Of a stretch of 47,156 nt of DNA, positions 1,721 through 31,798 are shown in pieces; the first letter of the stretch is position 1, and every line of letters begins with the position of its first letter. The position numbers and the translations under genes are program-made. Below the pieces are notes generated by a model that was not told the DNA's origin, made no database searches, and saw only the letters and a program-made list of their open reading frames with translations. Source of the stretch: Saprospiraceae bacterium (lineage in GTDB: Bacteria; Bacteroidota; Bacteroidia; Chitinophagales; Saprospiraceae); NCBI GenBank assembly GCA_029263015.1, contig JAJCYI010000204.1:1-47156 (forward strand), read 5' to 3'.

Positions 1721-1747
1721 GAAAATGGTTTAACGGTATGTTGGTAT

Positions 1748-1827
1748 AATGGTGTATTGGTTTATCGGTGTATTAGTACGGAGGTGAACCCATTAAATCG
1801 ATACACCGCTAAACCACCAAACCGATT
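1748..1827. repeat. Intergenic hairpin built from 8-nt words (GGTnTAnn)
   Basis: Starting near 1728 the sequence runs in 8-nt steps beginning GG (GGTTTAAC, GGTATGTT, GGTATAAT, GGTGTATT, GGTTTATC, GGTGTATT). The segment 1748-1774 pairs imperfectly with 1798-1827. It fills the gap between the stop of the DapA-family gene and the start of the aldehyde dehydrogenase, so both are probably on one minus-strand transcript with this structure between them. Confidence 0.7.
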
Positions 1828-2736
1828 TTAAACTTTTGGCAATTTTGGACGGTTGGCCAGTCCATCTTTCAGGATTTTAAGCACCCGTTTCCGCTCTGCA
1901 CCTTTGAGTCTTTGGCGGGGCGGGCGGACATGTTCAGTACCAATGCCAGTCATTACTTCGGCCAATTTAATATTTTGTACCAATTGTGGGCTAATATCGA
2001 GTTCAAGAATTGGTAAAAACCAGCGGTATATTTTCAGGGCTTCCTTAATGCGCCCTGCTTTTACTAATCGGTAGATGACCACCGTCTCCCGTGGGAACGC
2101 ATCCACGAGTCCAGCAACCCAACCGTGGGCGCCCATCGCCAATTCTTCCATGGCGAGGGTGTCCACGCCGCAGAGGATTTTCAGACGATTTGGCCCAAAG
2201 CGGTTGATGATGCGGGTGACATTGGAAATGTCGCGGGTGCTTTCTTTTACCGCCTGGATATTTTTTCTTTTCAATAAAACCTCAAACATGTCAAGTGTTA
2301 CCTCGATCTTGTAATCCACGGGATTGTTGTAAACTAAAATAGGTAGGTCGGTTGATTTTGATACATCTATGAAGAAATTTGTGGTTTCCGCATCGGTTGG
2401 CTTGTATTGCATGGGAGGCAAAACCATGAGTCCGTTAGCGCCATTTTTCTGGGCTTCGTTTGCGACAGCGATGGCTGCTTTTGTCGAGCGCTCCGCGACA
2501 TTTACAATCACAGGGATTTTGCCCTTGGCCAAATTTAGGCAAGTAGTCAGTAGCTGCATTTTTTCATCTTGCAACAGTGTACTCGCTTCGCCCAAGGAGC
2601 CTCCGATCACCATGCCGTCAATGCCGGCCTTGATCTGTGCATTTATATTTTTAGAAAAGGCTGGGATGTCAAGGTCGCCTTTTTTCGTGAATTTTGTCGT
2701 GAGCGCCGGATAGACGCCTTTCCATTTTATTTTCAT
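1828..2736 (-). CDS. Dihydrodipicolinate synthase/N-acetylneuraminate lyase family protein
   Basis: 302 residues from the ATG at 2736. The frame is open 20 codons further upstream, but a promoter box lies inside that extension, so the internal ATG (MKIKWKG) is chosen. It is a class I lyase with a TIM-barrel fold. The GxxGE motif is GGSLGE (45-50), the catalytic Tyr is 136 in VYNNP, and the Schiff-base Lys is 164 in AVKES. Family members catalyse pyruvate aldol chemistry or deamination/dehydration. Paired with an alpha-ketoglutarate-semialdehyde dehydrogenase, it could be a 1-pyrroline-4-hydroxy-2-carboxylate deaminase or a keto-deoxy-sugar-acid dehydratase. It is unlikely to be the lysine-pathway DapA, because no lysine genes adjoin it and the usual GTTGE motif is replaced. 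Confidence 0.85.
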   Translation of the reverse strand: MKIKWKGVYPALTTKFTKKGDLDIPAFSKNINAQIKAGIDGMVIGGSLGEASTLLQDEKMQLLTTCLNLAKGKIPVIVNVAERSTKAAIAVANEAQKNGANGLMVLPPMQYKPTDAETTNFFIDVSKSTDLPILVYNNPVDYKIEVTLDMFEVLLKRKNIQAVKESTRDISNVTRIINRFGPNRLKILCGVDTLAMEELAMGAHGWVAGLVDAFPRETVVIYRLVKAGRIKEALKIYRWFLPILELDISPQLVQNIKLAEVMTGIGTEHVRPPRQRLKGAERKRVLKILKDGLANRPKLPKV

Positions 2737-2762
2737 GGTAGTAGGTTTATTGATTTTAGGGG

Positions 2763-2796
2763 CAAAATTAGGAAGTTTGGGGTTGGTGGGTTTCAA
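2763..2796 (-). promoter_or_regulatory. Promoter of the DapA-family gene
   Basis: Read on the minus strand, TTG (2796-2794) is followed after 23 nt by TAATTTTG (2770-2763), matching the Bacteroidota pattern TTG-N17-23-TAnnTTTG. The predicted leader to the ATG at 2736 is about 20 nt, which supports the shorter start. Confidence 0.7.
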
Positions 2797-2911
2797 AAAA
2801 AATATCCAATATTGATACGATATTGATTTGTTTTAATTTAAAGCTGAAAATCATCACCATCTTAGTATTGATTTTATATTCAACCACGTCTTAGGGTTAC
2901 GCTCAAAATAA

Positions 2912-2945
2912 AATGTCGGCAGGGTTTCCGAACCCAACCGACATT
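2912..2945 (-). terminator. Terminator hairpin of the propeller gene
   Basis: AATGTCGG (2912-2919) pairs with CCGACATT (2938-2945), with an inner GGGTT/AACCC stem and a TCCG loop. On the minus strand it is followed by a T-rich stretch. It lies about 50 nt past the stop at 2995. Confidence 0.7.
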
Positions 2946-2994
2946 CGTCCGTCACATCCAAGCAAGGACAATTTATGTAATCCGCGGCAGTTGA

Positions 2995-5403
2995 TTATTT
3001 ATCCAAAACCACCAATTTTTTACTTGTTTTATGGCCATTTCTTTCGAGAGTGACTACATAAAATCCAGGGCTTGTATTTCCGATCCAAGTCTTTTTTTCT
3101 TTTGTTTTGGTTGAGAAATGAAGCCTTCCCGCCGCATCAAAAACATTGATATCCGAGGATTCTGCAGGGAATGCGGGGTCGAGCCATTCTATCCAAAAAC
3201 CTTCTGTATTGGGGTTGGGGTACAAAATAACAGCGGGTTTGTCTTGGTTCAGGTCTTCGACAAAAGTGACAGGGAGTTCTTCAACCAGCGTATTTTCGGT
3301 TGTATTTGTCACAATGGCCGGGTTGAAATCGAAATAGATTTGGGCCGTGTTTTCGATGGTCGTTGGATCGGGGAGCCCTTCCCTTGGGGCGATCCTGTAT
3401 TTCACAAAACCATGACTGGCTGGCCCGTCAAAGGACTCCCAAAGCAGGTTTATGTTTTCAAAAACAAAAGTTAGAACGCCATCGGCAGTCATGGTAGTTC
3501 GGACAGGATGGCTAAAGGAAATGACCTCAAAACTGGCAGGGTCGAGGTTGGCATCCAAGGTGTCCCTAATGACGACTATGAAAGCGGTGTCGTTGCCCTT
3601 GTTTTGAAAGCGGATGGTAAAATCGAGCGGGTCGGTCAGCAAGGAAAGATTCCCTATATAATCACCAGTCGCTTCTGCCTTTTTATCGTTTGGGTCATAA
3701 GAACACCGGACTTCGGTATTGGTGTAATCCTGTGTGGTCTGCGTGATATTTTCATTTTCGGTGCGGGTTGCTACCACGTTGAATTCGAGCAGGTCGCCAA
3801 CAGAGTTTGCCCCTGGGCTTTTGAATTTCACTTTGATTGGCTCGTATCCAAAAGGGGCCAAATCCTCGTATTTCCATGTAATGACATTTCCTTGGTTGCT
3901 TTCAGGCGGCTTGTTGGATTCGAGAAGTAAAAGGTTTGGATAAGTGGTCAGTTCGATTGAGCCACTTGCAGGGAGCAGGCCGTGGTTCGGCACCTGTATC
4001 CAAATAGTGAACGTTTCATTGCAGCGCGCCATGCTTGCCGTTATGTCCACGCTGACGGAGTCGGGCGGGTCGTTGCTCCAAACACCGAAATCAAAACCAG
4101 TTTGGTCAGCATTGCCCATGAGCAAGGACAAGGTGGAAGGGGATGTGGGGACATAAGGGGTATCGGGCTGTATGGATATTTCATGGTTTCCAGTAGTGGG
4201 GTAAAAGGTGTATAGGCCGCCAATGCTGGAATAAGTTGTTGTTTGGTCAGGTTGCAAAATGATTTTTTCGCTGGGGAGGCCGGGTTCACCATTGGGTGCT
4301 TTTGTGCCGTCTTGGTCTGTATCAAAAAAGACCTGTCCCCTGATACTGTTTGGTGGGTTGATGATGCGGGTGGAAATGCCGTATTCGTTGAAGACGGAGA
4401 CGCCGGTGCTGTGGACGAACCATTTGTTGCCATACGGATCTATTTTGACTTCCCATACCATGTCTTCGCCAATGGGGGAATTGGTGACATTGTATTCCGT
4501 AAAGTTGTTTCCATCCCAAAAATGAACGCCGTTGGTTGTGGCAAACCATAAATTCCCATATACATCTTCGGTCATGGACAACACGTCTCCTTTGCCGCTC
4601 AAAACCGGGAAAACCTCCCAGTCCGCACCATTGTACCGAAGGGCCTGCCCTTTGTTCCAAGCCCAGATAGAGCCGGAGTGATCCGCATAGACCCAAAAAA
4701 CAGCTATGGGCAGGGGAGAGTTGGACGAATTGAAAACCTGCCAGTCCGTTCCATCAAACTTGGCGAGGCCTTTTCCGTAGGTTCCCATCCAAACATTGCC
4801 GTCCAAGTCAAAGGCGATATCCCAAATTGTATTCGTTATTGGGGAGTTCGACTCATTGTACCAAGTCCATGCACTGCCATCAAATTTGCCGACCCCATTG
4901 TTCCTCGTAGTTACCCAGACATTCCCATCTGGGCCAATTTTCACCTCGATAGCCCCCCCGCCTCCATTGTGTTGAGTGAAACTGGTTCCATCGTAACTCA
5001 CTATGCCATTGCTGCCTTCATAAGACCCGATCCACAGCATGCAATTGGCCGTATCGGTTGTCATCGTCCAAGTATCAATAGAGACGCCAATATCAGAAGG
5101 TTTGTATTCTTGCCAATTTATGCCATCAGATACGTTTAATACTGCCGTTGAATTCCCCCCAAACCAAGTATTTCCGTTGCAATCAAATGCAATGTCCTTT
5201 AAATAATTGTCTCCCAAGGGATAAAACTCGGTGTTGTACCCTTTCCAAACAGTACCGTCAAATTCAAATACTTTTGGATAATGTATGCCCGCAGTTTGAA
5301 AATGTGCGACCCACCAATGCCCTTGTTCATCAATATACTTGAGGACTGGGCTTGTTACTCCTTGCGGCGGAATGGCAGGTCGTCGAAATCCCAACTTTCC
5401 CAT
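2995..5403 (-). CDS. C-terminal portion of a secreted beta-propeller protein with T9SS sorting domain
   Basis: 802 residues, without a signal peptide. Residues about 1-340 are propeller-blade repeats of the two-component-regulator type (recurring GNVWMGT, AKFDGTDW and similar). Then comes an SdrD-B-like repeat beginning RGQVFFDTDQDG, a bacterial surface region with SYDPNDK, and a C-terminal T9SS type A sorting domain (ILYPNPNTEGF through GFYVVTLERNG to the terminal KKLVVLDK). The opening residues overlap the end of the next gene upstream in another frame, and the propeller repeats continue across the junction. This is therefore almost certainly the downstream part of one protein separated from its signal peptide by a one-base frameshift near 5360-5375. 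Confidence 0.85.
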   Translation of the reverse strand: MGKLGFRRPAIPPQGVTSPVLKYIDEQGHWWVAHFQTAGIHYPKVFEFDGTVWKGYNTEFYPLGDNYLKDIAFDCNGNTWFGGNSTAVLNVSDGINWQEYKPSDIGVSIDTWTMTTDTANCMLWIGSYEGSNGIVSYDGTSFTQHNGGGGAIEVKIGPDGNVWVTTRNNGVGKFDGSAWTWYNESNSPITNTIWDIAFDLDGNVWMGTYGKGLAKFDGTDWQVFNSSNSPLPIAVFWVYADHSGSIWAWNKGQALRYNGADWEVFPVLSGKGDVLSMTEDVYGNLWFATTNGVHFWDGNNFTEYNVTNSPIGEDMVWEVKIDPYGNKWFVHSTGVSVFNEYGISTRIINPPNSIRGQVFFDTDQDGTKAPNGEPGLPSEKIILQPDQTTTYSSIGGLYTFYPTTGNHEISIQPDTPYVPTSPSTLSLLMGNADQTGFDFGVWSNDPPDSVSVDITASMARCNETFTIWIQVPNHGLLPASGSIELTTYPNLLLLESNKPPESNQGNVITWKYEDLAPFGYEPIKVKFKSPGANSVGDLLEFNVVATRTENENITQTTQDYTNTEVRCSYDPNDKKAEATGDYIGNLSLLTDPLDFTIRFQNKGNDTAFIVVIRDTLDANLDPASFEVISFSHPVRTTMTADGVLTFVFENINLLWESFDGPASHGFVKYRIAPREGLPDPTTIENTAQIYFDFNPAIVTNTTENTLVEELPVTFVEDLNQDKPAVILYPNPNTEGFWIEWLDPAFPAESSDINVFDAAGRLHFSTKTKEKKTWIGNTSPGFYVVTLERNGHKTSKKLVVLDK

Positions 5404-6287
5404 CCTGCGCCATCGAACTTCGCATAAGTCCTATCTACCGCATTTGGGCCATAAGTTATCCAAAGGTTTCCTTTCTCATCTTTGAACGGCACCCACGAAC
5501 TGCCAACCTGATAAGGGCTTCCATCATAGTCCATTTCTGACCATTGGTTGCCATCGTACCTTTTCAATATCACTTGATTGAGGCCGGCACCATACTTTGA
5601 TATTACACAGATCAATTTATTGTCATCCATTGCCCAAATGCTGCGGAAATTTTCATCTGCCGCTAAGCCCACGTCGGTTTTGGTAAACGAAGCCACCACA
5701 TTGTTACCATCGTATTGCTGAACCTTTTGATCTGCAATCAGCCATATATGTCCATTTGGGGCAATGTCAAAATGCTGGACATTGGTGATATTGTTATTGG
5801 CGGGGCCAAACACTTCATCCATATAGGTGAACTCGTTCCCATCAAACCTGAAAAATTTACTGCAGCCTCCACAATTATTGTTGATTGTGGAACTGATCCA
5901 CAAATCCCCATTCGGTGCAGCTTTAATCTCAGAAACCCTGATAAGTGTGTCTCCCGTGTTGATATGATAAAACTGCTCCCAGTTCTCACCATCAAAACGC
6001 ATCAGCCCCCCATTATCGCCTCCCAGCCATTTCACCCCGTCGGGTGCTACGTAAATGGATTGGATGCCAAAGCCACGCATGCCTGAATTGGCGGGGAGAT
6101 ACAATTGTCGCTCTTCCGTTTCCAGGTCAATGCGGACAAGGCCTCCCTGTGTGCCAACCCACAGGAAATTGTCCTCTATGGCTATATCGTAGGTGAGATG
6201 GTCATTCACATAATTGACCCATTTCTGACTTTGGGCATTTAAAAAGAAAGGAAAAAAAAGGAACAGAAAGTAGGGGTAGGAGCGCAT
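5355..6287 (-). CDS. N-terminal portion of the same secreted beta-propeller protein
   Basis: 310 residues. It starts with a clear signal peptide (hydrophobic run FLFLFFPFFLNA, cleavage before QSQ) followed by propeller repeats (LWVGTQGGLVRID, KWLGGDNGGLMRFDG, IWLIADQKVQQYDG). It ends at TAA (5355) right after DDLPFRRKE. The last 49 nt overlap the downstream frame, in which the sequence continues as GVTSPVLKYIDEQGHWW, the expected next blade. One extra base near CGCCGCAAGG would join the two frames into a protein of about 1,100 residues. Either this is a sequencing error, or the gene is broken here and the N-terminal part lacks its T9SS signal. Confidence 0.85.
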   Translation of the reverse strand: MRSYPYFLFLFFPFFLNAQSQKWVNYVNDHLTYDIAIEDNFLWVGTQGGLVRIDLETEERQLYLPANSGMRGFGIQSIYVAPDGVKWLGGDNGGLMRFDGENWEQFYHINTGDTLIRVSEIKAAPNGDLWISSTINNNCGGCSKFFRFDGNEFTYMDEVFGPANNNITNVQHFDIAPNGHIWLIADQKVQQYDGNNVVASFTKTDVGLAADENFRSIWAMDDNKLICVISKYGAGLNQVILKRYDGNQWSEMDYDGSPYQVGSSWVPFKDEKGNLWITYGPNAVDRTYAKFDGAGWESWDFDDLPFRRKE

Positions 6288-6571
6288 AATAGAATGTTAT
6301 AAGGTTGAGAAAAAATGAACAGCCGTAAAATAGCGGCATTTTCTGGTTCGTACAAATCCAAGTTCGGTATTGTCATGGGGAATTCAAAAATGTTTTGGTG
6401 AAATGAATCGGGCGATTTTCGCTACATTGGCTGTTTGTTTTTAAGCAACTGCAACGTGCAATCGGCAATAAAATCCGGCATTTTGAAAACCATGATTCCC
6501 CTGGATTTTAAATGTTCTTTTGGTAATTAAATTTTCCGACATGGACAAGCGATCTTTGTTCAAATAACAAT

Positions 6572-7462: not shown

Positions 7463-7546
7463 AGTAATTTACTGGCATGCAATCTGTGGTAGAACTACTA
7501 TGCTAACATGAACACAAGGCGGGAGTTCTGAACCAGTAAATTACTT
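7462..7546. terminator. Hairpin between convergent AraC and ATPase genes
   Basis: A 14-bp perfect inverted repeat (AAGTAATTTACTGG at 7462-7475, complement at 7533-7546) spans the whole gap and touches both stop codons, with a smaller inner AGAACT/AGTTCT pair. It is probably a bidirectional terminator. It also marks the left boundary of the AT-rich ATPase segment. Confidence 0.65.
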
Positions 7547-13643: not shown

Positions 13644-13710
13644 GGCTAGCGGTGCTCTTCCGAAAGGGTGGGAATTCAATTCCCACCCTTTGGTAAGAGC
13701 ACCGCTAGCC
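13644..13710. terminator. Long hairpin after the helicase gene
   Basis: GGCTAGCGGTGCTCTT (13644-13659) pairs with its complement at 13695-13710, and an inner AAAGGGTGGGAATT pairs across the centre, interrupted by 3 nt. It begins one base after the helicase stop. The centre GGGAATTCAATTCCC is identical to that of the hairpin at 38154-38200, so this is a dispersed element. Confidence 0.75.
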
Positions 13711-15492: not shown

Positions 15493-16806
15493 GTGAAACT
15501 TTTCCTCTACCTATTCTACTATTCTGCCAAACTCCTTGTCCGGGCGGCCAGGTGGGTTTATTATTCGGAAAGGGGATTGGTAAACGAGGAACGAACCGAT
15601 CACAAAGGACCGGTTATTTTAGTGTCCAATCATCCGGGTACGGTGATGGATCCTTTGAATTCAGTGGTCAACATGAATCGGATGGTCAATTTTTTGGCCA
15701 ATGCCAGTTTGTTCAATACAAAGTTCAGCCATTGGTTTTTAAGCACTTTTTATTGCATTAAAATAGAACGGTATGTCGATACGGGCGGCAAGCCGCTGAA
15801 CAATGAAGCTGCATTTCGACAGGCGACCAATTTTTTGACAGGGGGCGGATGCCTTTACATTGCGCCCGAAGGCGGTAGTTATGAAGGTCGCCGAATTCAA
15901 AAATTAAAAACCGGCTTGGCCCGCATTGCACTGAATACAGAACAGGAAAATGATTTTAATCTCGGGCTTCAAATCCTGCCGATCGGTCTGAATTATTCTG
16001 ACCCCTCGAAATTCCGCAGGCCGATCCTTGTCATAATGGGAGAGCCGTTTCCCGTAGCCATTTTCAAAAAAGACTGGGAGGAGGATAGGAGAGGGGCGGT
16101 ACGGGAGTTGACGCTTCATTTAAAACAATGCATTGCAGATGTTATCCTAAACACTTCCGATGACGAGGAAGATACTTTACTTGCGAACTTGGAGGTCATG
16201 CTGCACAACGAATCTAAATTACCATTATTTGAGCAGTATAAACGCGCTAAAATGGTTTTGCAAAAGATACAGAAATGGAGGGTGGAACAGCAGCATTTTA
16301 TTGCTGATTTTTCAGAATCGGTTGGCACTTATTTTGAGAAAATACAAAAAATAAACGTCGAGGATGTTTCATTAAAAACGGATTCTCAACAAATTTTTCC
16401 GCAGGGATTGCTCTTATTGTTGGCTTCTCCATTTGCTTTGGTTGGTTATGCCACTCATTTTTTACCTGCATTTTTGATAAAAAAACTAAGTGAAAAATTG
16501 AGCGGTGACCCAGTTTGGGCTCCGACCTATAAGGTGGCGGGCGGGCTGGTGATTTACCCAGTAATTATTCTATTGCAGATTAGATTGTTGGATGTGTGGT
16601 TTTCCACTTTCGGGGAAACAGGCCTTTATTTGAAATGGCTTTATATTGTGGGCATCATACCTACAGGGCTGCTGGCAGAATGGTTTATTGGTAAATGGAA
16701 AATATTCATGAGCAACTGGCGGTTTCGACGTTTTGCGAAGACGAACCAAAATGAACATCGGGAGTTGTTGCAGCAGCGGGAGTTAATTTTGCAGGCTATT
16801 CGGTAG
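15493..16806 (+). CDS. Lysophospholipid acyltransferase (PlsC-like) family membrane protein
   Basis: 437 residues from a GTG start; no ATG fits. The acyltransferase core has SNHPGTVMDP (the NHP-type HX5D variant common in Bacteroidota) and a second motif IAPEGGSYEGRR (PEG). The C-terminal third has hydrophobic segments (LLLLLASPFALVGYATHFL, VIYPVIILLQIRLL, WLYIVGIIPTGLLAEWFI) that anchor it in the inner membrane. It probably transfers a fatty acyl chain to a lysophospholipid or glycerol phosphate acceptor. The long C-terminal extension distinguishes it from the ~240-residue housekeeping PlsC. It is followed by a 27-bp perfect stem. Confidence 0.85.
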   Translation: MKLFLYLFYYSAKLLVRAARWVYYSERGLVNEERTDHKGPVILVSNHPGTVMDPLNSVVNMNRMVNFLANASLFNTKFSHWFLSTFYCIKIERYVDTGGKPLNNEAAFRQATNFLTGGGCLYIAPEGGSYEGRRIQKLKTGLARIALNTEQENDFNLGLQILPIGLNYSDPSKFRRPILVIMGEPFPVAIFKKDWEEDRRGAVRELTLHLKQCIADVILNTSDDEEDTLLANLEVMLHNESKLPLFEQYKRAKMVLQKIQKWRVEQQHFIADFSESVGTYFEKIQKINVEDVSLKTDSQQIFPQGLLLLLASPFALVGYATHFLPAFLIKKLSEKLSGDPVWAPTYKVAGGLVIYPVIILLQIRLLDVWFSTFGETGLYLKWLYIVGIIPTGLLAEWFIGKWKIFMSNWRFRRFAKTNQNEHRELLQQRELILQAIR

Positions 16807-16807
16807 A

Positions 16808-16862
16808 TTATAAGGCTGGACTTCGAGGAAGTTTAAAACTTCCTCGAAGTCCAGCCTTATAA
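16808..16862 (+). terminator. Perfect 27-bp stem after the acyltransferase gene
   Basis: Positions 16808-16834 are the exact complement of 16836-16862 around a single central A, with no mismatches. It starts two bases past the stop codon and ends 12 bases before the glycosyltransferase start. It has no U-tract, so it may block or attenuate transcription, or serve as an mRNA 3'-end stabiliser, rather than act as a simple terminator. Confidence 0.7.
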
Positions 16863-16874: not shown

Positions 16875-17987
16875 ATGCTCGAACAAATCTTATTATACAG
16901 CTTCCTTGCAGCCACTGCCATCCAGTTGTTTTTCTGGCTGTATTTCTTTTCCCGTCTTGCTTTGTATCAAGAAAAAAAAGACCTTCCCGCATCCGCCGTC
17001 CCTCGTCCATCAGTATCAATAATCATCTGTGCACACAATGAGGCGGAAAATTTAAAGGCCAATCTTGACCGTATTCTAAATCAAAACTACCGTTCCTTCG
17101 AGGTAATTGTCGTCTCACACAATTCATGTGATGAAAGTTTAAATATATTATCATCTTTGCAATATCGCTTTAAACATCTAAGGATTATTGAATGCAACGA
17201 TCCTCGACCCGGTAAAAAATATGCATTGGCAAAAGGTATCGGGGAAGCGAAAAACGAAGTTCTTTTATTGACGGATGCCGACTGCAAACCCACCAGTAAA
17301 GATTGGTTGAGAACCATGGTGGAGAATATGGATGGCAAGGCTGAGATTGTACTGGGGTTTGCCCCATATGATGAAATGCCTGGCTGGCTCAACAAGTTCA
17401 TTCGATATGAAACTTGCTACACCGCGATTCAATATTTTTCGTTTGCATTGGCTGGGATGCCTTATATGGGAGTAGGCAGAAATATGGCCTATCTCAAAAA
17501 GCTGTTTCGGCAGACAGAGGGTTTTGAAAACCACCGAGATTTGGCATCAGGCGACGATGATTTGTTTATCAATCAAGTCGCAAATAATAAAAACACAAAA
17601 ATTCAACTTGATCCACGGACTTTTGTGTTTTCAAAACCGAAGCTTACTTGGAAAGCTTATATCCGTCAGAAAACGAGGCATTTATCAACAAGCAAGCGTT
17701 ATAAACTACCACATAGAATTCTACTATTTACGCTCGCTATGAGTCATTATCTACACTATTTTTTGGGAGGAATATTTATCATATATAAATTTAGCATAAT
17801 ATTTGCTCTATTGGGATATGCGGTGAGGATGAGTGTAGTGATGGCTTTCAGCAGCGTCATTTTGAAAAGGTTACGACATAAAAAATTGTGGCCCTGGGTT
17901 CCCGCCCTTGATGCTTTTCTGGTACTATACTACATTTTGTTCACTCCGATGATTCTCATGAACAATTACACCCAGAGATGGAATTAA
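16875..17987 (+). CDS. Glycosyltransferase family 2 membrane protein
   Basis: 370 residues. An N-terminal membrane helix (about 5-27) precedes the GT-A domain (VSIIICAHNEAENL, the metal-binding DADC within LLLTDADCKP, the acceptor-site SGDDDLFINQ and a QKTRHLSTSKRY motif). Two or more C-terminal membrane helices follow (LHYFLGGIFIIYKFSIIFALLG, FLVLYYILFTPMILM). It probably adds a sugar to a lipid carrier or envelope glycan on the cytoplasmic face. Its last 10 nt overlap the start of the sigma-factor gene, implying translational coupling. Confidence 0.9.
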   Translation: MLEQILLYSFLAATAIQLFFWLYFFSRLALYQEKKDLPASAVPRPSVSIIICAHNEAENLKANLDRILNQNYRSFEVIVVSHNSCDESLNILSSLQYRFKHLRIIECNDPRPGKKYALAKGIGEAKNEVLLLTDADCKPTSKDWLRTMVENMDGKAEIVLGFAPYDEMPGWLNKFIRYETCYTAIQYFSFALAGMPYMGVGRNMAYLKKLFRQTEGFENHRDLASGDDDLFINQVANNKNTKIQLDPRTFVFSKPKLTWKAYIRQKTRHLSTSKRYKLPHRILLFTLAMSHYLHYFLGGIFIIYKFSIIFALLGYAVRMSVVMAFSSVILKRLRHKKLWPWVPALDAFLVLYYILFTPMILMNNYTQRWN

Positions 17988-18658
17988 CACTAACGAAACA
18001 CACCAATGGTCTGTCCCAACAGACATCCACAATCACTCACAGTCTCTCACCTAAAGCCTCCGAAGATTACATCTTGGTACAGGCTGCCATTACAGGTGAC
18101 CAACAGGCTTTTTCATCACTCTTAAATCGCTATCGTGCGTCCGTTTATAACCACCTTCTTAAGATGGTGCGCAATCCGGACGATGCTGAAGACCTCACAC
18201 TTGAGGCTTTTGGCAAGGCATTTAACAAATTGTCCACGTATGCGCCGCACTTCGCTTTTTCGACTTGGTTGTTTAAGATTGCAGTAAACAACTGCATTGA
18301 CCACATCCGTAAAAAGCGCCTGCATTTTCTAAGTATCGATCAGCCTTTGGAGCCACATGGCAACAAAGATTTCACGGGTACTATTAGAACTTCTGCCCGT
18401 AATCCAGAGGAAGAGGTCATCCGCAGCCAGAAATTGCAAATGGTGAAACGCTCGATTACTCACCTCAACCACAAGTACCGCCTCATGATTGAGCTGCGCT
18501 ACTATGAAGAGTTGAGCTATGAAGAGATTGCCAACGAGTTGCAAATCCCACTGGGCACTGTCAAAGCACAATTGTTCCGTGCCAAGGAAATGCTTTTTGG
18601 TATCATGCAGAAGCCAGGCCATGCGGCATATCTGGAAACTACTCGGAGGTATAATTGA
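17978..18658 (+). CDS. ECF-type RNA polymerase sigma factor
   Basis: 226 residues. Region 2 is around AFSSLLNRYRASVYNHLLKMVRNPDDAEDLTLEAF and TWLFKIAVNNCIDHIRKKR. Region 4 is the helix-turn-helix ELSYEEIANELQIPLGTVKAQLFRAKEML. The N-terminal ~30 residues are extra. No anti-sigma factor gene lies next to it, which is unusual for ECF factors. Instead it overlaps the end of a glycosyltransferase gene by 10 nt, suggesting they are expressed together. Confidence 0.93.
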   Translation: MELTLTKHTNGLSQQTSTITHSLSPKASEDYILVQAAITGDQQAFSSLLNRYRASVYNHLLKMVRNPDDAEDLTLEAFGKAFNKLSTYAPHFAFSTWLFKIAVNNCIDHIRKKRLHFLSIDQPLEPHGNKDFTGTIRTSARNPEEEVIRSQKLQMVKRSITHLNHKYRLMIELRYYEELSYEEIANELQIPLGTVKAQLFRAKEMLFGIMQKPGHAAYLETTRRYN

Positions 18659-18733
18659 ATATTTGAGTATTTGAGTTTCTGAGTTATTTACTCAGAAACT
18701 CAAGTACCCAGAAACTCAAATACTCCAATATTC
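18657..18733. repeat. 8-nt-word hairpin (GAGTATTT/GAGTTTCT) with two alternative pairings
   Basis: The left arm 18657-18684 consists of GAGTATTT, GAGTTTCT and GAGTTATT-like units. Its inner part (GAGTTTCTGAGT) pairs with ACTCAGAAACTC just downstream. Alternatively, the whole arm pairs with the more distal CAGAAACTCAAATACTCC...ATATTC ending at 18733. The two folds exclude each other. It begins inside the sigma-factor stop codon. Confidence 0.7.
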
Positions 18734-18788
18734 AAAACTCATTCACGGAAAACTTTCTTTCAATCAAGGTGGAGTCGTTTGGTTTTTA

Positions 18789-24724: not shown

Positions 24725-24732
24725 AGTTGATT

Positions 24733-24808
24733 AATGGTTAATGACGAATGGTGAATAGTGAATACTTATTATTAGTCATTCACCATTCACCATTCACCAT
24801 TCACCATT
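24733..24808. repeat. 7-nt-word hairpin (ATTCACC) between accB and accC
   Basis: The right arm 24777-24808 is ATTCACC repeated in tandem (four full units). The left arm 24733-24765 carries degenerate complements (GGTTAATGACGAATGGTGAATAG). The loop is ATTATTAG-like. It occupies nearly the whole accB-accC gap, so it lies inside a presumed operon and immediately before the accC start. Confidence 0.75.
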
Positions 24809-24810
24809 CT

Positions 24811-25329
24811 TTATTCCGGTTCTACAAGGAAAAGTACTTGGTCGTATTCGACAGGTTTGGCATTGTCAACTAAGACTTTGACGATCTTGCCACTGATTTC
24901 TGCTTCAATTTCATTGAACAATTTCATGGCTTCAATGACGCAAACGACATCACCTTTGTTGATCGTTTTACCAACTTCAGCATAAGCTGGCTTCTCTGGG
25001 GAAGCAGCGCGGTAAAATGTACCTACCATTGGTGATTTTATTTCGAGATAATTGGCAGTGCTGGCTTCTTCTTTGGCAGGTGCAAGGGACGGGGCTTTTT
25101 CGGGAGATACAGGTGCGGGTTCCGCAGCTATAGGTTGGATGGCGGGTGCAGCAAGAGGTGAGCCGGTCAAAGAGATCGGAGTGGAGATCATCTTGGAGGA
25201 GTGAACCTTTGTGTCCACATACCGGTCGGTTTTAACAGACAGCTCAAAATCACCGTCTTTCATTTTGAATTCAGCCAGCCTTGATTTGCTGAGTGCTTTG
25301 ATCAATTCCGTGATTTCCTGAAAAGTCAT
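24811..25329 (-). CDS. accB: Acetyl-CoA carboxylase biotin carboxyl carrier protein
   Basis: 172 residues. The N-terminal ~35 residues form the conserved helix region (QEITELIKALSKSRLAEFKMKDGDFELSV), followed by an Ala/Pro-rich linker (about 60-105) and the C-terminal biotinyl domain with the biotinylated lysine in EAMKLFNEIEAE. It carries biotin between AccC and the carboxyltransferase. The order efp, accB, accC is the usual one in this phylum. Confidence 0.96.
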   Translation of the reverse strand: MTFQEITELIKALSKSRLAEFKMKDGDFELSVKTDRYVDTKVHSSKMISTPISLTGSPLAAPAIQPIAAEPAPVSPEKAPSLAPAKEEASTANYLEIKSPMVGTFYRAASPEKPAYAEVGKTINKGDVVCVIEAMKLFNEIEAEISGKIVKVLVDNAKPVEYDQVLFLVEPE

Positions 25330-25347
25330 GATAAGTCGTTTTGAGCT

Positions 25348-25449
25348 GGTTTATCGGTTTATTGGTTTTTGGTGTAACGGGCGTTGGTACTTTGAATACA
25401 CAATAAGTGCAACACACCGTTAAACCAAAAACCAATAAACCGATAAACC
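25348..25449. repeat. 8-nt-word hairpin (GGTTTATC/GGTTTATT) between efp and accB
   Basis: The 33-nt arms 25348-25380 and 25417-25449 match in 32 of 33 positions. Each arm reads as successive 8-nt units (GGTTTATC, GGTTTATT, GGTTTTTG, GTGTAACG). The right arm ends 5 nt from the efp stop codon, and the left arm begins 18 nt before the accB start. Confidence 0.8.
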
Positions 25450-25454
25450 AACCA

Positions 25455-26055: not shown

Positions 26056-26077
26056 ACCTGCCTGTCGGTAGGCAGGT
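26056..26077 (-). promoter_or_regulatory. Hairpin in the efp 5' leader
   Basis: ACCTGCCT (26056-26063) pairs with AGGCAGGT (26070-26077). The U-rich flank lies on the plus-strand side, so it would not terminate minus-strand transcription efficiently. Because the efp promoter box is at 26096-26103, this hairpin lies within the efp leader, about 40 nt before its start codon. Confidence 0.55.
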
Positions 26078-26095
26078 TTTTTTTGAAAAGCGGCG

Positions 26096-26103
26096 CAAAG
26101 ATA
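26096..26103 (-). promoter_or_regulatory. -7 promoter box of efp
   Basis: The minus strand reads TATCTTTG, matching TAnnTTTG, 80 nt upstream of the efp ATG. Confidence 0.6.
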
Positions 26104-26108
26104 GGTTT

Positions 26109-26207
26109 CAGTGGGCAGTATGCAGTTCGCAGTGAGTAGTTTTTTTACCGAAGCCATCTTTGCCCCGCATCAATACCTGCATACTGCCAACTGCCGATTG
26201 TCAACTG
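26109..26207. repeat. 7-nt-word hairpin (CAGTNNG) after fabH
   Basis: The left arm 26109-26136 is CAGTGGG, CAGTATG, CAGTTCG, CAGTGAG. The right arm 26178-26207, read in complement, gives CAGTTGACAATCGG, CAGTTGG, CAGTATG. It starts 3 nt past the fabH stop codon and ends close to the efp promoter box, so it probably marks the fabH 3' end. Confidence 0.72.
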
Positions 26208-26209
26208 AA

Positions 26210-27199: not shown

Positions 27200-27203
27200 A
27201 AAG

Positions 27204-27334
27204 TGAGTTTTGAGTATTTGAGTTCGTGAGTGTTTGAGTTCGTGAGTATTTGAGTTCGTGAGTATTTTCTGATATTTCCATTTTCCGTACTTTCACGAAC
27301 TCAAACACCCGGAAACTCAAATACTTAGAAACTC
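27204..27334. repeat. 8-nt-word hairpin (GAGTATTT/GAGTTCGT) at the fabH start
   Basis: The left arm 27204-27270 is eight successive 8-nt units of the form AGTnTTTG or AGTTCGTG. The shorter right arm 27297-27334 carries complements (CGAACTCAAACACCC, GGAAACTCAAATACTT). It lies 5 nt upstream of the fabH ATG, so the fabH leader begins with, or runs through, this structure. Confidence 0.75.
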
Positions 27335-27415
27335 TGAAAATGTGGGATCTTTTAAAAAATAATACCTTGCGGCTGAATTGAGCGGGCAAGGTAGAAAAAA
27401 TGTAGGAATTTCGTG

Positions 27416-27473
27416 GTTTCATGGTTTCATGGTTTCACTGCTCCAAAACAGTGAAACAGTGAAACAGTGAAAC
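27416..27473 (+). repeat. 8-nt-word hairpin overlapping the nadD initiation site
   Basis: The left arm (GTTTCATG, GTTTCATG, GTTTCACTG; 27416-27440) pairs with the right arm (CAGTGAAAC, AGTGAAAC, AGTGAAAC; 27449-27473) across loop CTCCAAAA, with two mismatches per repeat. The right arm ends one base before the nadD ATG, and the start codon itself (CAATGAAA) looks like one further, altered repeat unit. Confidence 0.78.
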
Positions 27474-27474
27474 A

Positions 27475-28047
27475 ATGAAAATAGGTCTCTTTTTCGGCTC
27501 TTTCAATCCTGTGCATGTAGGGCATATGATCATTGCCAATTATATGGCAACCTACACCGACCTCGACCAAGTGTGGATGGTGGTAAGTCCGCAAAACCCG
27601 CTGAAACCAAAGTCGGTCCTCGCTAATGATTATGACCGACTACACCTTGTCCGCCTCGCCATTGGCGATAACCCCCAGCTTCGGGCTTCCAATATTGAAT
27701 TCGACCTTCATCGGCCTTCTTACACCATTGACACACTGTCTTACCTAAAAGAAAAATACCCCGAAAACGAGTTTGTCCTCATCATGGGGGGTGACAATCT
27801 GGCAACCCTCCACAAATGGAAAAACTACGAACTCATTTTACAGGAATACCATATCTATTTATACAAACGGCCTAACTTGAAATTGGGAAAATTTGAAAAC
27901 CACCCGCATGTTCAACATTTTGAAGCACCCATGCTGGATATTTCGGCAACCTATATACGGCAGTGCATCAAAAGGGATAAATCCATTGAGTACCTTGTGC
28001 CTGATGCTGTATTTGAGTATTTGCAAGGCGGTTCAATGTACAAATAA
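27475..28047 (+). CDS. nadD: Nicotinate-nucleotide adenylyltransferase
   Basis: 190 residues. It is a nucleotidyltransferase with the adenylyl-binding motif GSFNPVHVGHM near the N-terminus, PQNPLKP, GGDNLATLHKWKNY and the C-terminal ISATYIRQCI (the ISSTxIR motif). It makes deamido-NAD from nicotinate mononucleotide and ATP. It has no recognisable Shine-Dalgarno sequence. The start codon lies at the foot of a repeat hairpin that would hold the initiation region in secondary structure. Confidence 0.95.
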   Translation: MKIGLFFGSFNPVHVGHMIIANYMATYTDLDQVWMVVSPQNPLKPKSVLANDYDRLHLVRLAIGDNPQLRASNIEFDLHRPSYTIDTLSYLKEKYPENEFVLIMGGDNLATLHKWKNYELILQEYHIYLYKRPNLKLGKFENHPHVQHFEAPMLDISATYIRQCIKRDKSIEYLVPDAVFEYLQGGSMYK

Positions 28048-28059
28048 AATGGAGGTGAC

Positions 28060-28479
28060 TCATTTCCGATTATTCCCCTTCTTTGATTTTGATGGGGGGG
28101 TCTTCATCACAAAACGGTGATTTTCCACCAATTCCAACAAATCAAAAGAACTCACAACCCCGACAATCTCATTTTCATGTGTGACGACAACATGGTGGAT
28201 GTGGTGGTTCCGCATGATCCGTGCAGCTATGTGGACATCGTTGTAGGCAGGTACAGAGTAAACATGATCGGGCATGATGTGGCTGATAGGGATGCCATCG
28301 TCATGGCCCTTGGCGAGATCGGAAGTAGTGATGATTCCAACCACTTCATTATTAGTATTGACAACGGGAACGGAACTGATGTTGTTTTTGGACATAATGT
28401 CACTTACATGCCCAAGCGATTTGTGTGGAACTGTGGTCACCACGCTTTTGTGCATGATGTCAGCAATTTTTACATTCAT
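28060..28479 (-). CDS. CBS-domain pair protein
   Basis: 139 residues made of two CBS domains (IADIMHKSVVTTVPHKSLGHVSDIMSKN...VPVVN and ISHIMPDHVYSVPAYNDVHIAARIMRNHHIHHVVV) and no catalytic domain. Such stand-alone proteins bind adenosine nucleotides and regulate partners. The basic C-terminus ends SKSKKGNNRK. It is convergent with nadD and has its own promoter box upstream. Confidence 0.92.
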   Translation of the reverse strand: MNVKIADIMHKSVVTTVPHKSLGHVSDIMSKNNISSVPVVNTNNEVVGIITTSDLAKGHDDGIPISHIMPDHVYSVPAYNDVHIAARIMRNHHIHHVVVTHENEIVGVVSSFDLLELVENHRFVMKTPPSKSKKGNNRK

Positions 28480-28532
28480 TTAAATGGGTTGATTGGTTTG
28501 AAACTAGTCATCCTAAAATTAAAAGGTGGGGG

Positions 28533-28540
28533 CAAAAGTA
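28533..28540 (-). promoter_or_regulatory. -7 promoter box of the CBS gene
   Basis: The minus strand reads TACTTTTG, matching TAnnTTTG, 54 nt upstream of the ATG at 28479. Confidence 0.5.
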
Positions 28541-28571
28541 AGAAATTCAAGATTATACCCAGAAGCAGATT

Positions 28572-29207
28572 CTATGGTGTAGGCTCACCATATTTAAGGT
28601 GCAACACCTTTGCTCGGCCTTTTTCGTAAACGGTGACCAAATAAAGGTTGTCGTATTGCGTCTCAGGTAGTTGCGAATAGACGTTGGTTCCGGTTATCAC
28701 ATTCAATAAAGAAGGAGTTGTGTTTGAATGGCCTACCACGAGTATTGCACCATCCTGGTAGTTTCCCAATATTTCATCGGTAAGCGGGTCAAGGTCAAAA
28801 CCACCATAGTTTTGGATGGTGATTCCTTGATCTCCCGCGGTAGGTTGAGCCGTTAGCATGGTTCGGTTAAAATTAGTGGAGTAAACCGCATCAAGGCTTA
28901 TATCGCCCAGCACCCTGGTGAGTTCGTCAGCTCTTTCCTGGCCGGCTGCACTAAGGATTGGGTCGCCACCGGCTCCTGTTGTCTCGGCATGGCGCACCAA
29001 AATGAACGTGGTGGCGGTATCGTCGATCAATTGGGTAAGTGTGATCGTGTCGGTGATGGTCAGGAATACGGTGTCGATAGCGGTGACAAATACGGTGTCG
29101 GTTTCGACAACTGTTTCAGTGATGATTTCGGGGTCTTTGTCACAACTGGTGAAAAACGATACAAATAAAGTAAATGCAAAAATTGCTGTTGTGATTTTTA
29201 GGTTCAT
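28572..29207 (-). CDS. Histidine phosphatase family lipoprotein
   Basis: 211 residues. The signal peptide ends in a lipobox (SFFTSC, Cys about residue 22). A Thr/Asp/Val-rich repetitive linker follows (TETVVETDTVFVTAIDTVF, then TITDTITLT). The phosphoglycerate-mutase-like domain has the phospho-acceptor motif LVRHAET, and the second histidine is in VVGHSNTTPSLL. It sits on a membrane face and dephosphorylates an unknown substrate. The linker DNA is internally repeated, which may make it length-variable. Confidence 0.88.
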   Translation of the reverse strand: MNLKITTAIFAFTLFVSFFTSCDKDPEIITETVVETDTVFVTAIDTVFLTITDTITLTQLIDDTATTFILVRHAETTGAGGDPILSAAGQERADELTRVLGDISLDAVYSTNFNRTMLTAQPTAGDQGITIQNYGGFDLDPLTDEILGNYQDGAILVVGHSNTTPSLLNVITGTNVYSQLPETQYDNLYLVTVYEKGRAKVLHLKYGEPTP

Positions 29208-29250
29208 TAGTATTTTAAATTAGGGCTTGATTAGTTAGTAGCTTCTTACG

Positions 29251-29535
29251 TTAAAATGGATGCTGCATGCGATTATCAAAAAACGCAATCAATTCGATCA
29301 CATTCCCTTCTGTCCGATAGGCCAAGGATAGGTTTTTAGTAGCGACGCACCGTCGGATGCTTGGAATTATTATAGATTGGGGACACAATTGGCTATTGTT
29401 TTCTATTGACTTGATTAACCGCTCTACCTTGTTATCCATTTTAATAGCGGTGTCTATTGGGGAATTGTCCATGATGTAATTTAGGATCGCTGCGTAGGTG
29501 TCTTTTGCCTCTTGAGACCAGAAGATTTGGTTCAT
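29251..29535 (-). CDS. RelE/ParE-superfamily toxin
   Basis: 94 residues. The family pattern is visible: WSQEAKDTYAAILNYI at the start, NKVERLIKSIENNSQLCPQS in the middle and LAYRTEGNVIELIAFFDNRMQHP at the end, typical of RelE/ParE toxins that cut ribosome-bound mRNA or inhibit gyrase. The antitoxin gene lies 15 nt upstream, so the two form one operon. Confidence 0.85.
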   Translation of the reverse strand: MNQIFWSQEAKDTYAAILNYIMDNSPIDTAIKMDNKVERLIKSIENNSQLCPQSIIIPSIRRCVATKNLSLAYRTEGNVIELIAFFDNRMQHPF

Positions 29536-29550
29536 AGGGTTGAGCTTTAT

Positions 29551-29802
29551 CTATGATTTCTTTAAAAGCTTGTTTATTTCTTCTCGTACCTTCCCATGTG
29601 GTAAACGTCCACCGTTTTCCAACTGCTCAAGTCCCTTTTTTATTGATTCTTTTTCTTCATCACTAATAATGTCCCACCAGTCCATTTCGTCCCCACTTTT
29701 AATTAGGTTTCCAAAAACAGATTTTATTTTTTGCAATATATTGATGTCGTCTGTTTCCACGATCAAGCGGTGTAAGTCATTTTTTATTTTTGCAGCTGAC
29801 AT
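29551..29802 (-). CDS. Antitoxin of a type II toxin-antitoxin pair
   Basis: 83 residues, mostly helical and charged. The region WWDIISDEEKESIKKGLEQLENG followed by PHGKVREEINKLLKKS resembles antitoxins encoded beside RelE/ParE toxins in Bacteroidota. The antitoxin-first order is normal. No recognised DNA-binding fold is obvious by eye. Confidence 0.8.
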   Translation of the reverse strand: MSAAKIKNDLHRLIVETDDINILQKIKSVFGNLIKSGDEMDWWDIISDEEKESIKKGLEQLENGGRLPHGKVREEINKLLKKS

Positions 29803-29910
29803 AGCATACGTTTTAAGTTGAGGAAAAATATGGTCTGTAAAAATAAAGGAAAATTAGCAAATATCCCACCCAATATATAATGGCTACCTGGGATTTGGGC
29901 ATTCATTCAG

Positions 29911-29996
29911 CAATCAAAAATCATGTATTCTTGAACCGTAAATCAGTTGTGTAAAAGGATTTGTGATTTACGATTACATGAATCTTGATTTCTGAT
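29911..29996. repeat. 7-nt-word hairpin (GATTTNN) after recN
   Basis: The right arm 29964-29996 reads GATTTAC, GATTACAT, GAATCTT, GATTTCT in about 7-nt steps, and pairs imperfectly with 29911-29945 (AATCAAAAATCATG...CGTAAATCA). It lies 10 nt past the recN stop codon. Confidence 0.62.
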
Positions 29997-30006
29997 CTAT
30001 CCCACC

Positions 30007-31668
30007 CTACACCGCCAGCCCCATCAGCTCCCTCGCATTTGCCAGTGCCGCCTCGCTGGGCGGACTTTGACTCAACATCACGGCGATGGAACGCACCCGT
30101 TCGTCGTCGTTCAACTGTTTTATTTTAGTAGCAGTGCTGTTTCCTGTTACTTTCTTGTAAACAAAATAGTGGGCGTCTGCTTTAGAAGCGATCTGCGGGG
30201 AATGGGTGATGTTAATGACCTGGTGGTGATTGCTGAGTTGCCGCAGTATATTGCCCATTTTTAAGGAAACATCGCCAGAAATACCAGTATCGATTTCATC
30301 AAAAATCAGCGTAGGTAAAGGAATGGCGCTTGCTACGAGTGATTTGGTCACCAAAGTCAAACGGCTCAATTCCCCGCCAGAGGCCACATCCTTGATATGC
30401 TGCAAACGGCTACCGGGGTTGGCTGCGAAAAGAAAACTGACCTCGTCGGTGCCCGTGGTCGAAAGGTGGTCCAGGCTCTTGAACTCTACCTCGAAACGGG
30501 TGTGCGGCATGGCCAGTTGCTTGAGCAGGCCGAGGACTTTTTTGGTAAATGACGGAGCTGATTTTTTTCGGTGCTGAGAAAGCTGTTTGGCAATGCTAAG
30601 GAGGTTTCTTTCCTGCCCGGCGATGCTTTTTTCGAGGGCTTCGATTTCAGAAGATAGGTCCCCAAAGGAATCCAGTTTGGTTTGGAGGGATTCCTGGATA
30701 TCAAGGAGTTCTGAAATAGAGTTGACACGGTGCTTGTTCTGGAGGCGGTAAATGGTGTCGAGCCGGGATTGAATGACTTCGATCCTTTCAGGGTCAAATT
30801 CTGTACTTACTGCTACTTTCTCAAACTCTCCAGCCACATCTTCCATTTCCAATGAAAGACTTTCCAAACGGGTGTAAAGAGAAGGGATGTCTGGGTGGAA
30901 TGTTTTCACTTCGGCTACTTGTCGCAGCAATTCAGCCAGTTGTCCAGTGAGTGGGGTTTCTCCATTGGTCAGGTTGTTGAAGGCGGCTGAAAGGGTCTTT
31001 TTTATTTCTTCGGCATTGGTTAACTGGTTCAGTTCTGTTTCGAGGGTAGCCTGTTCACCGATTTTCAGTTGTACTTCATTGAATTCTTCCAATTGGAAGT
31101 TTAGAAAGTCTGCCTCCTGAGAGGATCGGGTATTTTGCTCCAATAATTGTTGGAGCTTTCGTTTGTCAGAAGCGAATTTTCGGTGATGGTTTTGGTATTC
31201 GTCGAGGAGGTTTTTATTTCCAGCAAGGGCATCAAGCATTCGCAATTGGAAAGAAACATGGTGGATGTCGAGTGTGTCAAATTGTTCGTGAAGGTCGATC
31301 AATGCCCCGGTCAATTGTCTGAGCATTTCGAGGCGGACAGGCGTATCGTTCACAAAAGCCCTCGATTTGCCGGAAGGCGATAACTCCCTGCGGATAATGC
31401 ATTCAGGAGAATAATCAAGGTCTTTTTCTTCAAAAAAGGATTTCAATTTGTAACGCTCTATTTCGAAAACCCCTTCGATCACACATTTCTGCGATTCATC
31501 ATACAGAGATTTGGAGTCTGCCCGCCCGCCCATGATAAGGCCGAGGGCACCAAGTAAAATGGATTTACCTGCACCCGTTTCCCCAGTGATGATGGTCAAC
31601 CCTTCCGGGAAACCGATCTCCAGTTTCTCGATGATTGCGTAATTGCGGATGGAAAGTTTTTTGATCAT
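30007..31668 (-). CDS. recN: DNA repair protein RecN
   Basis: 553 residues, standard length. SMC-like ATPase: Walker A GETGAGKSILLGAL near the N-terminus, long coiled coil in the middle, then the ABC signature DVASGGELSRL and Walker B TLIFDEIDTGISG near the C-terminus, with ITHSPQIASKADAHY. It promotes double-strand-break repair. Its promoter box lies upstream of a long repeat hairpin, so the mRNA probably has a ~120-nt structured leader. Confidence 0.96.
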   Translation of the reverse strand: MIKKLSIRNYAIIEKLEIGFPEGLTIITGETGAGKSILLGALGLIMGGRADSKSLYDESQKCVIEGVFEIERYKLKSFFEEKDLDYSPECIIRRELSPSGKSRAFVNDTPVRLEMLRQLTGALIDLHEQFDTLDIHHVSFQLRMLDALAGNKNLLDEYQNHHRKFASDKRKLQQLLEQNTRSSQEADFLNFQLEEFNEVQLKIGEQATLETELNQLTNAEEIKKTLSAAFNNLTNGETPLTGQLAELLRQVAEVKTFHPDIPSLYTRLESLSLEMEDVAGEFEKVAVSTEFDPERIEVIQSRLDTIYRLQNKHRVNSISELLDIQESLQTKLDSFGDLSSEIEALEKSIAGQERNLLSIAKQLSQHRKKSAPSFTKKVLGLLKQLAMPHTRFEVEFKSLDHLSTTGTDEVSFLFAANPGSRLQHIKDVASGGELSRLTLVTKSLVASAIPLPTLIFDEIDTGISGDVSLKMGNILRQLSNHHQVINITHSPQIASKADAHYFVYKKVTGNSTATKIKQLNDDERVRSIAVMLSQSPPSEAALANARELMGLAV

Positions 31669-31674
31669 TTATAG

Positions 31675-31798
31675 AGTAGTGACCGGTGGTTAGTGACAAG
31701 TGATTTAGTAAAATAGTGAATTAGTGATTGATGGTTAGTTGCCAGGGGGGGGATCCACTAATCACTGGTCACTATTCACCAAGCACTAATTTGACCGG
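31675..31798. repeat. 7/8-nt-word hairpin (AGTGAnnn) in the recN leader
   Basis: The left part repeats AGTGACC, AGTGACA, AGTGATTT, AGTGAATT, AGTGATTG from 31676 to about 31740. After a G-run (31745-31752) the right part carries complements (CCACTAATCACTGGTCACTATTC, AGCACTAATT). It fills the gap from 7 nt before the recN ATG up to the recN promoter box. Confidence 0.7.

Follow-up and report, generated by a model that had tools for sequence, protein, structure and literature searches.

Polar tandem arrays of 7- and 8-nt words and the hairpins they form at gene boundaries of a Saprospiraceae bacterium

The 47,156-nt contig JAJCYI010000204.1 of a Saprospiraceae bacterium (assembly GCA_029263015.1), hereafter the window, carries nine intergenic hairpins whose arms are themselves tandem arrays of a 7- or 8-nt word, and arrays of the same kind, with or without an inverted partner, are found at gene boundaries elsewhere in this genome and in most of its congeners. 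The arrays are polar: it is usually the G-rich strand that leaves a gene, whether at its stop or at its start, and this polarity, also present in arrays without an inverted partner, constrains every model of their origin. The reading preferred here, tentatively and at somewhat less than even confidence, is that slippage and the copying of one arm into the other generate these polar arrays, which are then kept as hairpins.

Periodic hairpins and one-arm arrays

At each of the nine loci (Table 1), the best score at lag 7 or 8 was compared with that of 500 dinucleotide shuffles, and the inverted repeat with 100 shuffles. No shuffle matched the inverted repeat at any locus, and the periodicity exceeded that of all 500 shuffles at eight of the nine, the signal at 29907 being weak; the inverted repeats with 7- or 8-nt periodic arms listed in an earlier, sequence-only reading of the window are thus present where that reading placed them. 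The RNA fold z-score lies between -2.6 and -11.2 at eight loci and is -8.8 at the ninth (24725-24813). The lag-7/8 signal is not inherent to hairpins, because five others of the window (13644, 16808, 21258, 38155, and 42587) lack it, their scores being reached by 500, 500, 299, 500, and 500 of the 500 shuffles, respectively.

Table 1. Periodic inverted repeats of the window and the block between two of them, with the best lag-7/8 score and the number of shuffles reaching it
Positions	Feature	Repeated word	Context	Score (shuffles)
1728..1827	inverted repeat	GGTGTATT/GGTTTATC (8/16 nt)	between gene 152..1720(-) and DHDPS-family gene 1828..2796(-)	17 (0/500)
18655..18735	inverted repeat	GAGTTTCT/GAGTATTT (8 nt)	overlaps the stop codon of sigma-70-like gene 17978..18658(+)	25 (0/500)
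24728..24810	inverted repeat	AATGGTG (7 nt)	occupies the entire accB-accC gap	41 (0/500)
25347..25450	inverted repeat	GGTTTATC (8 nt)	efp-accB gap	12 (0/500)
26109..26207	inverted repeat	GCAGTNN (7 nt)	fabH-efp gap, adjoins the fabH stop	11 (0/500)
27204..27334	inverted repeat	GAGTTCGT/GAGTATTT (8/16 nt)	divergent fabH/nadD gap, upstream of the fabH start	17 (0/500)
27344..27398	block between both fabH/nadD hairpins		87.5% identity in L029; BLAST aligned no adjoining hairpin sequence	
27394..27480	inverted repeat	TTTCATGG / AAACAGTG (8 nt)	nadD start codon (27475) lies in the 3' arm	25 (0/500)
29907..29996	inverted repeat	GATTNNN (weak 7-nt periodicity)	downstream of recN	7 (27/500, weak)
31675..31798	inverted repeat	AGTGATT (7/8 nt)	upstream of recN	11 (0/500)

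The window belongs to a draft genome of 6.95 Mb in 245 contigs (G000; the window is its contig C204), from which 485 gaps between genes were sampled over 769 kb, about one tenth of the genome. The first sample (289 gaps, 66 kb) comes from contigs chosen through a match to one GAGT word and may therefore be slightly enriched in arrays, and the second (196 gaps) comprises the remainder of C163 together with C1-C12 and C14. Arrays of period 7, 8, 14, 15, or 16 are present in 113 of the 485 gaps (72/289 in the first sample vs 41/196 in the second). Specifically, the first sample holds 55 arrays of period 7, 19 of period 8, and 11 of period 16, vs 0, 1.3, and 0.3 after shuffling, with no other period below 14 in excess and five arrays of period 18 vs 0.3; the second adds 26 arrays of period 7 and 7 of period 8, to a total of 81 and 26, and 57 kb of coding sequence used as control contains one and seven, respectively. 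The intergenic scan at lag 7 or 8 that the sequence-only reading had proposed thus uncovers many loci sharing one pair of periods, enriched over shuffled sequence. By gene orientation, an array of any kind occurs in 15/75 divergent, 32/152 ++, 47/137 --, and 15/66 convergent gaps.

Genes were called by the longest open reading frame (ORF), so that gap edges may be off, and hairpins were searched ungapped. This search returned 190 inverted repeats with a score of at least 13, whose 5' arms match themselves at 0.32-0.36 at lags 7, 8, 14, 15, and 16 vs 0.25-0.30 at the other lags between 2 and 13; 52 of them, with an arm self-match of at least 0.62 at lag 7 or 8, are termed periodic hairpins. Moreover, when loops of up to 80 were allowed in the ungapped search, 74 of 144 arrays remained free of any overlapping inverted repeat with a score of at least 10; these are referred to as one-arm arrays. 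Periodic hairpins lie at a median distance of 9 nt from a flanking stop (25 nt or less in 39/55) and of 41 nt from a flanking start (25 nt or less in 14/41); four of the 52 belong to divergent gaps, and four fall within called ORFs.

As to polarity, the 52 periodic hairpins comprise 47 G-first, three C-first, and two even cases (binomial p 4e-11), a count that does not depend on gap halves, and G outnumbers C in their 5' arms by 307 to 71. Since both strands of an inverted repeat read the same, the G-first excess is not the strand bias of one gene. The remaining 138 hairpins divide into 82 G-first, 37 C-first, and 19 even (binomial p 5e-5). Arrays without an inverted partner are G-rich in 35 cases and C-rich in 7 on the left of the gap, and G-rich in 2 and C-rich in 30 on its right (p 2e-11). 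The rule is obeyed by 63/69 one-arm arrays of this genome (++ 22/26; -- 28/29; +- 4/4; -+ 9/10) and by 39/49 of those in 13 congeners (++ 12/17; -- 11/14; +- 10/12; -+ 6/6). Counter to it, arrays of this genome that overlap an inverted repeat give no significant result when scored by gap half (p 0.087), with 25 vs 13 after stops and 12 vs 18 before starts, and with agreement of only 3/10 in ++ gaps and 4/12 in -+ gaps; scoring by halves likely fails here since a hairpin located in one half of a gap puts both of its arms there. A model in which periods of 7 and 8 place a stop word in every frame was tried for the G-oriented words and rejected, as words containing a stop number 39/52 vs 40 expected for 7-nt words and 15/19 vs 13.2 for 8-nt words. 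G-outward polarity is not described in the portions of the literature covered here.

The housekeeping genes efp, accB, accC, fabH, nadD, and recN of the window, a type IX secretion system (T9SS) sorting domain, and database matches assign the genome to Bacteroidota. Within the divergent fabH/nadD gap, the block at 27344-27398 contains CTTGC and GCAAG in inverted order and, judging from its sequence, may be a divergent promoter. The position of the nadD start codon within the 3' arm of the hairpin, which spans 27417-27480, implies that folding could mask the initiation of translation.

Words across loci and relatives

The sequence-only reading also held that the word differs at every locus, which does not stand. 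Words recur across loci, with 28 identical pairs among 52 7-nt gap-words vs 4.6 for letter-permuted words and three among 19 8-nt gap-words vs 0 expected; by eye, GAGTTTCT (18657) forms one family with GAGTTCGT/GAGTATTT (27204), and GGTGTATT (1748) another with GGTTTATT (25348). Its companion statement, that the loci are not copies of one transposed sequence, is borne out, as no single dispersed element underlies them. Word abundance differs between the 14 genomes of the genus, i.e., G000 and the 13 congeners G001-G013. GAGAATT is matched 79 times in G000, 22 times in G004, and never in G003, G006, G010, and G011 (reversed-pattern control: 1 in G002, 3 in G004), and ATGAGGT has none in G000 and G010, 97 in G012, 94 in G007, 431 in G003, and 88 in G005, the last two counts being unspecific because the reversed pattern is also frequent there (197 and 290 in G003; 36 and 38 in G005). 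Two arrays of the same gap have more similar words (mean distance 1.69, 16 pairs) than arrays of different gaps (2.69, 3549 pairs), and the fraction of words within one mismatch is 0.106 within a genome vs 0.041 between genomes, a comparison dominated by G000.

All compared genomes are drafts, and orthologous gaps were located with protein anchors because grouping by gene adjacency gave few groups (conserved neighbours are few, and some ORF starts run into arrays). The congener closest to G000 by EF-P is G010; the nearest record found, "Bacteroidetes bacterium isolate HyVt-532" (L029), has an EF-P identity of 89% and gives the same alignment to the window as G010. The stretches around efp contain arrays in 12/13 congeners, the exception being G002, which has arrays in 2/18 gaps over all its stretches. 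Further away, arrays occupy 19/250 gaps in 25 stretches from relatives of the same family and order and 14/445 gaps in 79 public loci, mostly of Flavobacteriia.

The accB-accC gap carries an array of period 7 or 14 in 10 of the 13 species in which it is covered (it is uncovered in G011). By eye, its word is AATGGTG in G000, ATGAGG followed by G, T, or A in G001, G004, G012, and G013, ACGGTGG in G007 and G010, an ACGG word in G006, ATGAACG in G008, and TAGACTT in G009. The RNA fold z-score of the gap ranges from -4.5 to -11.4 in the ten array-bearing species and is -1.1, 0.3, and 0.0 in G002, G003, and G005, respectively, where no array was called. For the four species with ATGAGG words, projecting the fold of G001 onto their alignment gives pairing in 79/96 cells of the other three, and both sides have changed in 4/32 pairs. 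G002, G003, and G005 also lack the tandem array that follows the fabH stop in the fabH-efp gap of the other 11/14, with a period of 7, 8, 15, or 16 in seven species and of 17-23 in four; of the efp-accB gaps, 5/13 have a called array, of period 9 in two.

The closest pair, G001 and G013 (90% identity over 3.4 kb), offers nine comparable gaps. Among the four with arrays, two show length differences of 9 and 18 nt, whereas the five without arrays vary by 0-2 nt. In the fabH-efp gap the difference amounts to about 7 nt in one arm and 10 nt in the other, words have changed in both arms of the accB-accC gap with no marked change in length, and the fourth array-bearing gap has an array called in G013 only, at unchanged length. 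The turnover seen in this pair rests on these nine gaps because the three further comparable gaps found with L194 and L180 hold no array. The sequence-only reading had also suggested comparing the same gaps between close strains; between related species, the words of the accB-accC gap differ while its stem is kept in most, and the length shifts in two of the four array-bearing gaps of the closest pair, which supports that reading.

Origin of the arrays and retention of the hairpins

In the preferred reading, replication slippage in units of 7-8 nt would create and lengthen the arrays, short-range template switching within the gap would copy one arm into the other, and some copying between loci would spread favoured words and give rise to species dialects. 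The hairpins would then be retained as intercistronic or 3'-end structures in which pairing matters and sequence does not, with a partial barrier, translational coupling, or the protection of upstream mRNA as candidate roles. Either translational coupling or 3'-end protection would suit the hairpins located just after stops, among them the one between accB and accC, which probably form an operon. The most economical origin appears to be slippage by a unit of 7-8 nt combined with short-range template switching, although it would give neither polarity nor dialects. Polarity would need either selection at gene ends, for G-rich trailers, G-poor leaders, or a G-first intercistronic hairpin, or a directional DNA process, the boldest candidate being the addition of G-rich words to 3' ends, and dialects would need words that spread between loci or a biased generator. 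In the sections of the literature covered, stems are reported to arise and to be maintained through template switching (PMC8794818), and a 7-nt polymerase contact favouring slippage has been proposed for the excess of heptamers in other genomes (Mrazek 2007, as cited in PMC4679880).

The sequence-only reading had put forward slippage followed by the copying of one arm into the other, and period, turnover, and length changes agree with it. The position of the hairpins close to stops, the accB-accC stem found in most species, the pairing in the ATGAGG species, and the similarity of words within a gap also speak for the preferred reading. Copy-by-copy copying is only weakly borne out: the arms of this genome are identical in register at 0.891 vs 0.866 when the order of words is permuted, with the higher value in 16 of 23 hairpins having at least three words per arm. 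This weak matching beyond word identity is one of several points that weigh against the preferred reading. Slippage alone does not predict the G-outward polarity, which is also seen in one-arm arrays, including those of divergent gaps (9/10 and 6/6). The sharing of words between loci requires a further spreading step by a hypothetical agent. The accB-accC stem is absent in G002, G003, and G005. The structure derived from G001 favours itself when it is projected onto the aligned ATGAGG species. Lastly, all the functional steps are inferred from sequence. Long stems with changing sequence are usually taken as proof of selection on RNA; with 113 array-bearing gaps and 13 congeners, the present system allows polarity, arm matching, and word turnover to be weighed quantitatively against one another, so that it becomes testable how much mutation (through slippage and template switching) and how much selection contribute to the making of hairpins.

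Alternatively, the arrays may be dispersed units that ectopic conversion or a mobile agent copies from one locus to another, with local slippage doing no more than trim them. This explanation is rather unlikely, even though the excess of identical 7-nt word pairs, the species-dependent abundance of GAGAATT and ATGAGGT, and the matches of G001 arrays to many separate G013 contigs speak for it: the related words found at the same gap in related species fit local drift, and the number of Y1_Tnp transposase genes (none in G013, eight in G000, nine in G025) bears no evident relation, by eye, to arrays.

Composition rules could also select the orientation of otherwise neutral arrays, favouring G-poor leaders and G-rich trailers and leaving the hairpins as by-products. 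One-arm arrays of this genome conform to such rules (sense strand G-rich after stops in 34 vs 2, C-rich before starts in 31 vs 6), as do those of the congeners (25 vs 7 and 15 vs 3), and gaps without arrays are weakly skewed in the same direction (left half 4160 G/3880 C; right half 3842 G/4355 C). This background skew amounts to just a few per cent, and the rules explain neither the word shared by the two arms nor the accB-accC stem; the explanation is improbable.

A shade less probable still is that the hairpins are intrinsic terminators whose stems are repetitive by chance. Their proximity to stop codons and the short T runs seen by eye after the stem in the fabH-efp gap of several congeners are in line with termination, but no U tract was found in the survey of this genome, where at least four T occur in the first 6 nt after the stem in 6/41 after-stop periodic hairpins and in 9/74 non-periodic ones, a control that is hence not sharp. 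Moreover, termination leaves the G-first polarity unexplained, and stems are found as well between accB and accC, a probable operon, and ahead of starts in the divergent fabH/nadD gap.

Very unlikely, by comparison, are telomerase-like repair scars, in which a break in the spacer would be capped on both 3' ends by templated G-rich words of 7-8 nt and then joined. If so, G-rich words would point outward from each gene to the middle of the gap, the same word at both ends would yield a hairpin and a word at one end a one-arm array, and the species dialects would correspond to different templates. Gaps that by eye have different words on their two sides (L019:1295-1423, L024:18898-19330, L213:19089-19198) would fit such scars; gaps with two arrays that break the polarity (e.g., L009:10371-10530, L022:15931-16006) count against them, as does the sole rearrangement seen between G001 and G013, which has no array at its breakpoints. 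A parallel exists in DRT10 and telomerase, which produce short tandem-repeat DNA from an RNA template, with a 9-nt unit in one system and templates that vary by system; the DRT10 product differs in being the protein-primed cDNA of a defence system, and its entry into the chromosome is not described in the part of the source covered (PMC12632851).

Least probable of all are REP/BIME-like elements moved by RAYT transposases: although the hairpins are intergenic, palindromic, and numerous and Y1_Tnp matches occur in 33 of the 40 genomes searched, the loci have no stem sequence in common apart from shared words, their periodic words drift, and the number of Y1_Tnp genes is, as said, without evident relation to arrays. 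The loss of the SbcCD hairpin nuclease was likewise considered as a cause and rejected: SbcD scores above the curated cut-off in G000 and in 10/13 congeners, with no match in G005 and matches below the cut-off only in G011 and G013.

Known repeats and other palindromes

Repeats of this kind are already known, as STRR, as the Nostoc P6b stem, and as the heptamers of Bacteroidetes, in the portions of the sources covered. STRR (short tandemly repeated repetitive sequences) usually have intergenic 7-bp units, and one of them can form a hairpin near the 3' end of a gene, an ability called not unusual in filamentous cyanobacteria; their function is described as unknown, transcript stability or translational coupling being suggested (PMC2670836). 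The statement of the sequence-only reading that STRR are not inverted is therefore unsupported, because that paper describes hairpin-forming ones. The arrays reported here resemble STRR, compared by description only, in their tandem, mostly 7-nt, intergenic units at many loci, and differ in the phylum of the host, the frequent 8-nt units, the species-dependent abundance of words, and the measured polarity.

The P6b stem of the Nostoc tRNA-Leu (UAA) intron is built from one of two 7-nt motifs, TDNGATT or NNTGAGT, and Class I has repeatedly taken the place of Class II, the structure remaining similar (PMC4476775). Here too, both arms derive from 7-nt repeats, the motif varies by lineage, and pairing is kept (in the accB-accC gap of 10/13 species); by eye, AGTGATT and the TGAGT within the GAGTTTCT arrays resemble the P6b motifs. 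P6b differs in being a single group I intron locus, whereas the present hairpins occupy many loci between protein genes, and no Rfam family reaches the gathering score in the window. Similarly, direct repeats of the heptamer TAACTGA are intergenic in Beggiatoaceae, Cyanobacteria, and five Bacteroidetes, in some of which other heptamers accompany them; unlike the present arrays, they consist of one fixed word in direct orientation, with one inverted case, and in the genome chiefly studied most of them immediately precede starts (PMC4679880). Template-switch mutations share with the inferred origin a replication error that yields reverse-complement copies and multi-base compensatory changes, and differ in affecting RNA genes rather than spacers, neither tandem words nor polarity being mentioned in the part of the source covered (PMC8794818).

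No earlier report of such hairpins for this group is among the matches listed by a search of open-licence PubMed Central papers, subscription papers not being covered. As far as this search shows, the new elements are the scale within a Bacteroidota genus, the joint occurrence of 7- and 8-nt words, the dialects, the turnover at orthologous gaps, and the polarity. One of the hairpins was searched against a plasmid collection, with no match.

Palindromes of other types were also noticed. A dispersed palindrome with 50-nt arms (GGGTGTATTTCAAAATGT...) occurs at 42587-42699 of the window, where its arms are 92% complementary and show no 7/8 periodicity, and at L014:17165-17280 and L016:14559-14671. 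Near-perfect palindromes with arms of 38-43 nt starting with AGACCTGTCAGGTTGTTTT or a variant of it are found at L010:7928-8013, L012:396-483, L018:8501-8586, L019:17059-17144, and L020:8615-8702, and the inner part of their arms varies between copies. Palindromes with a core like TTCCRAAAGGRTGGGAATT lie at 13644-13710 and 38155-38201 of the window, L009:8690-8752, L020:18968-19006, and L023:11960-12018; the L009 copy is without the tip, and this copy and both window copies begin within 3 nt of a stop codon. Lastly, a perfect 27-bp inverted repeat with a 1-nt loop (16808-16862) lies one base past the stop of the gene ending at 16806.

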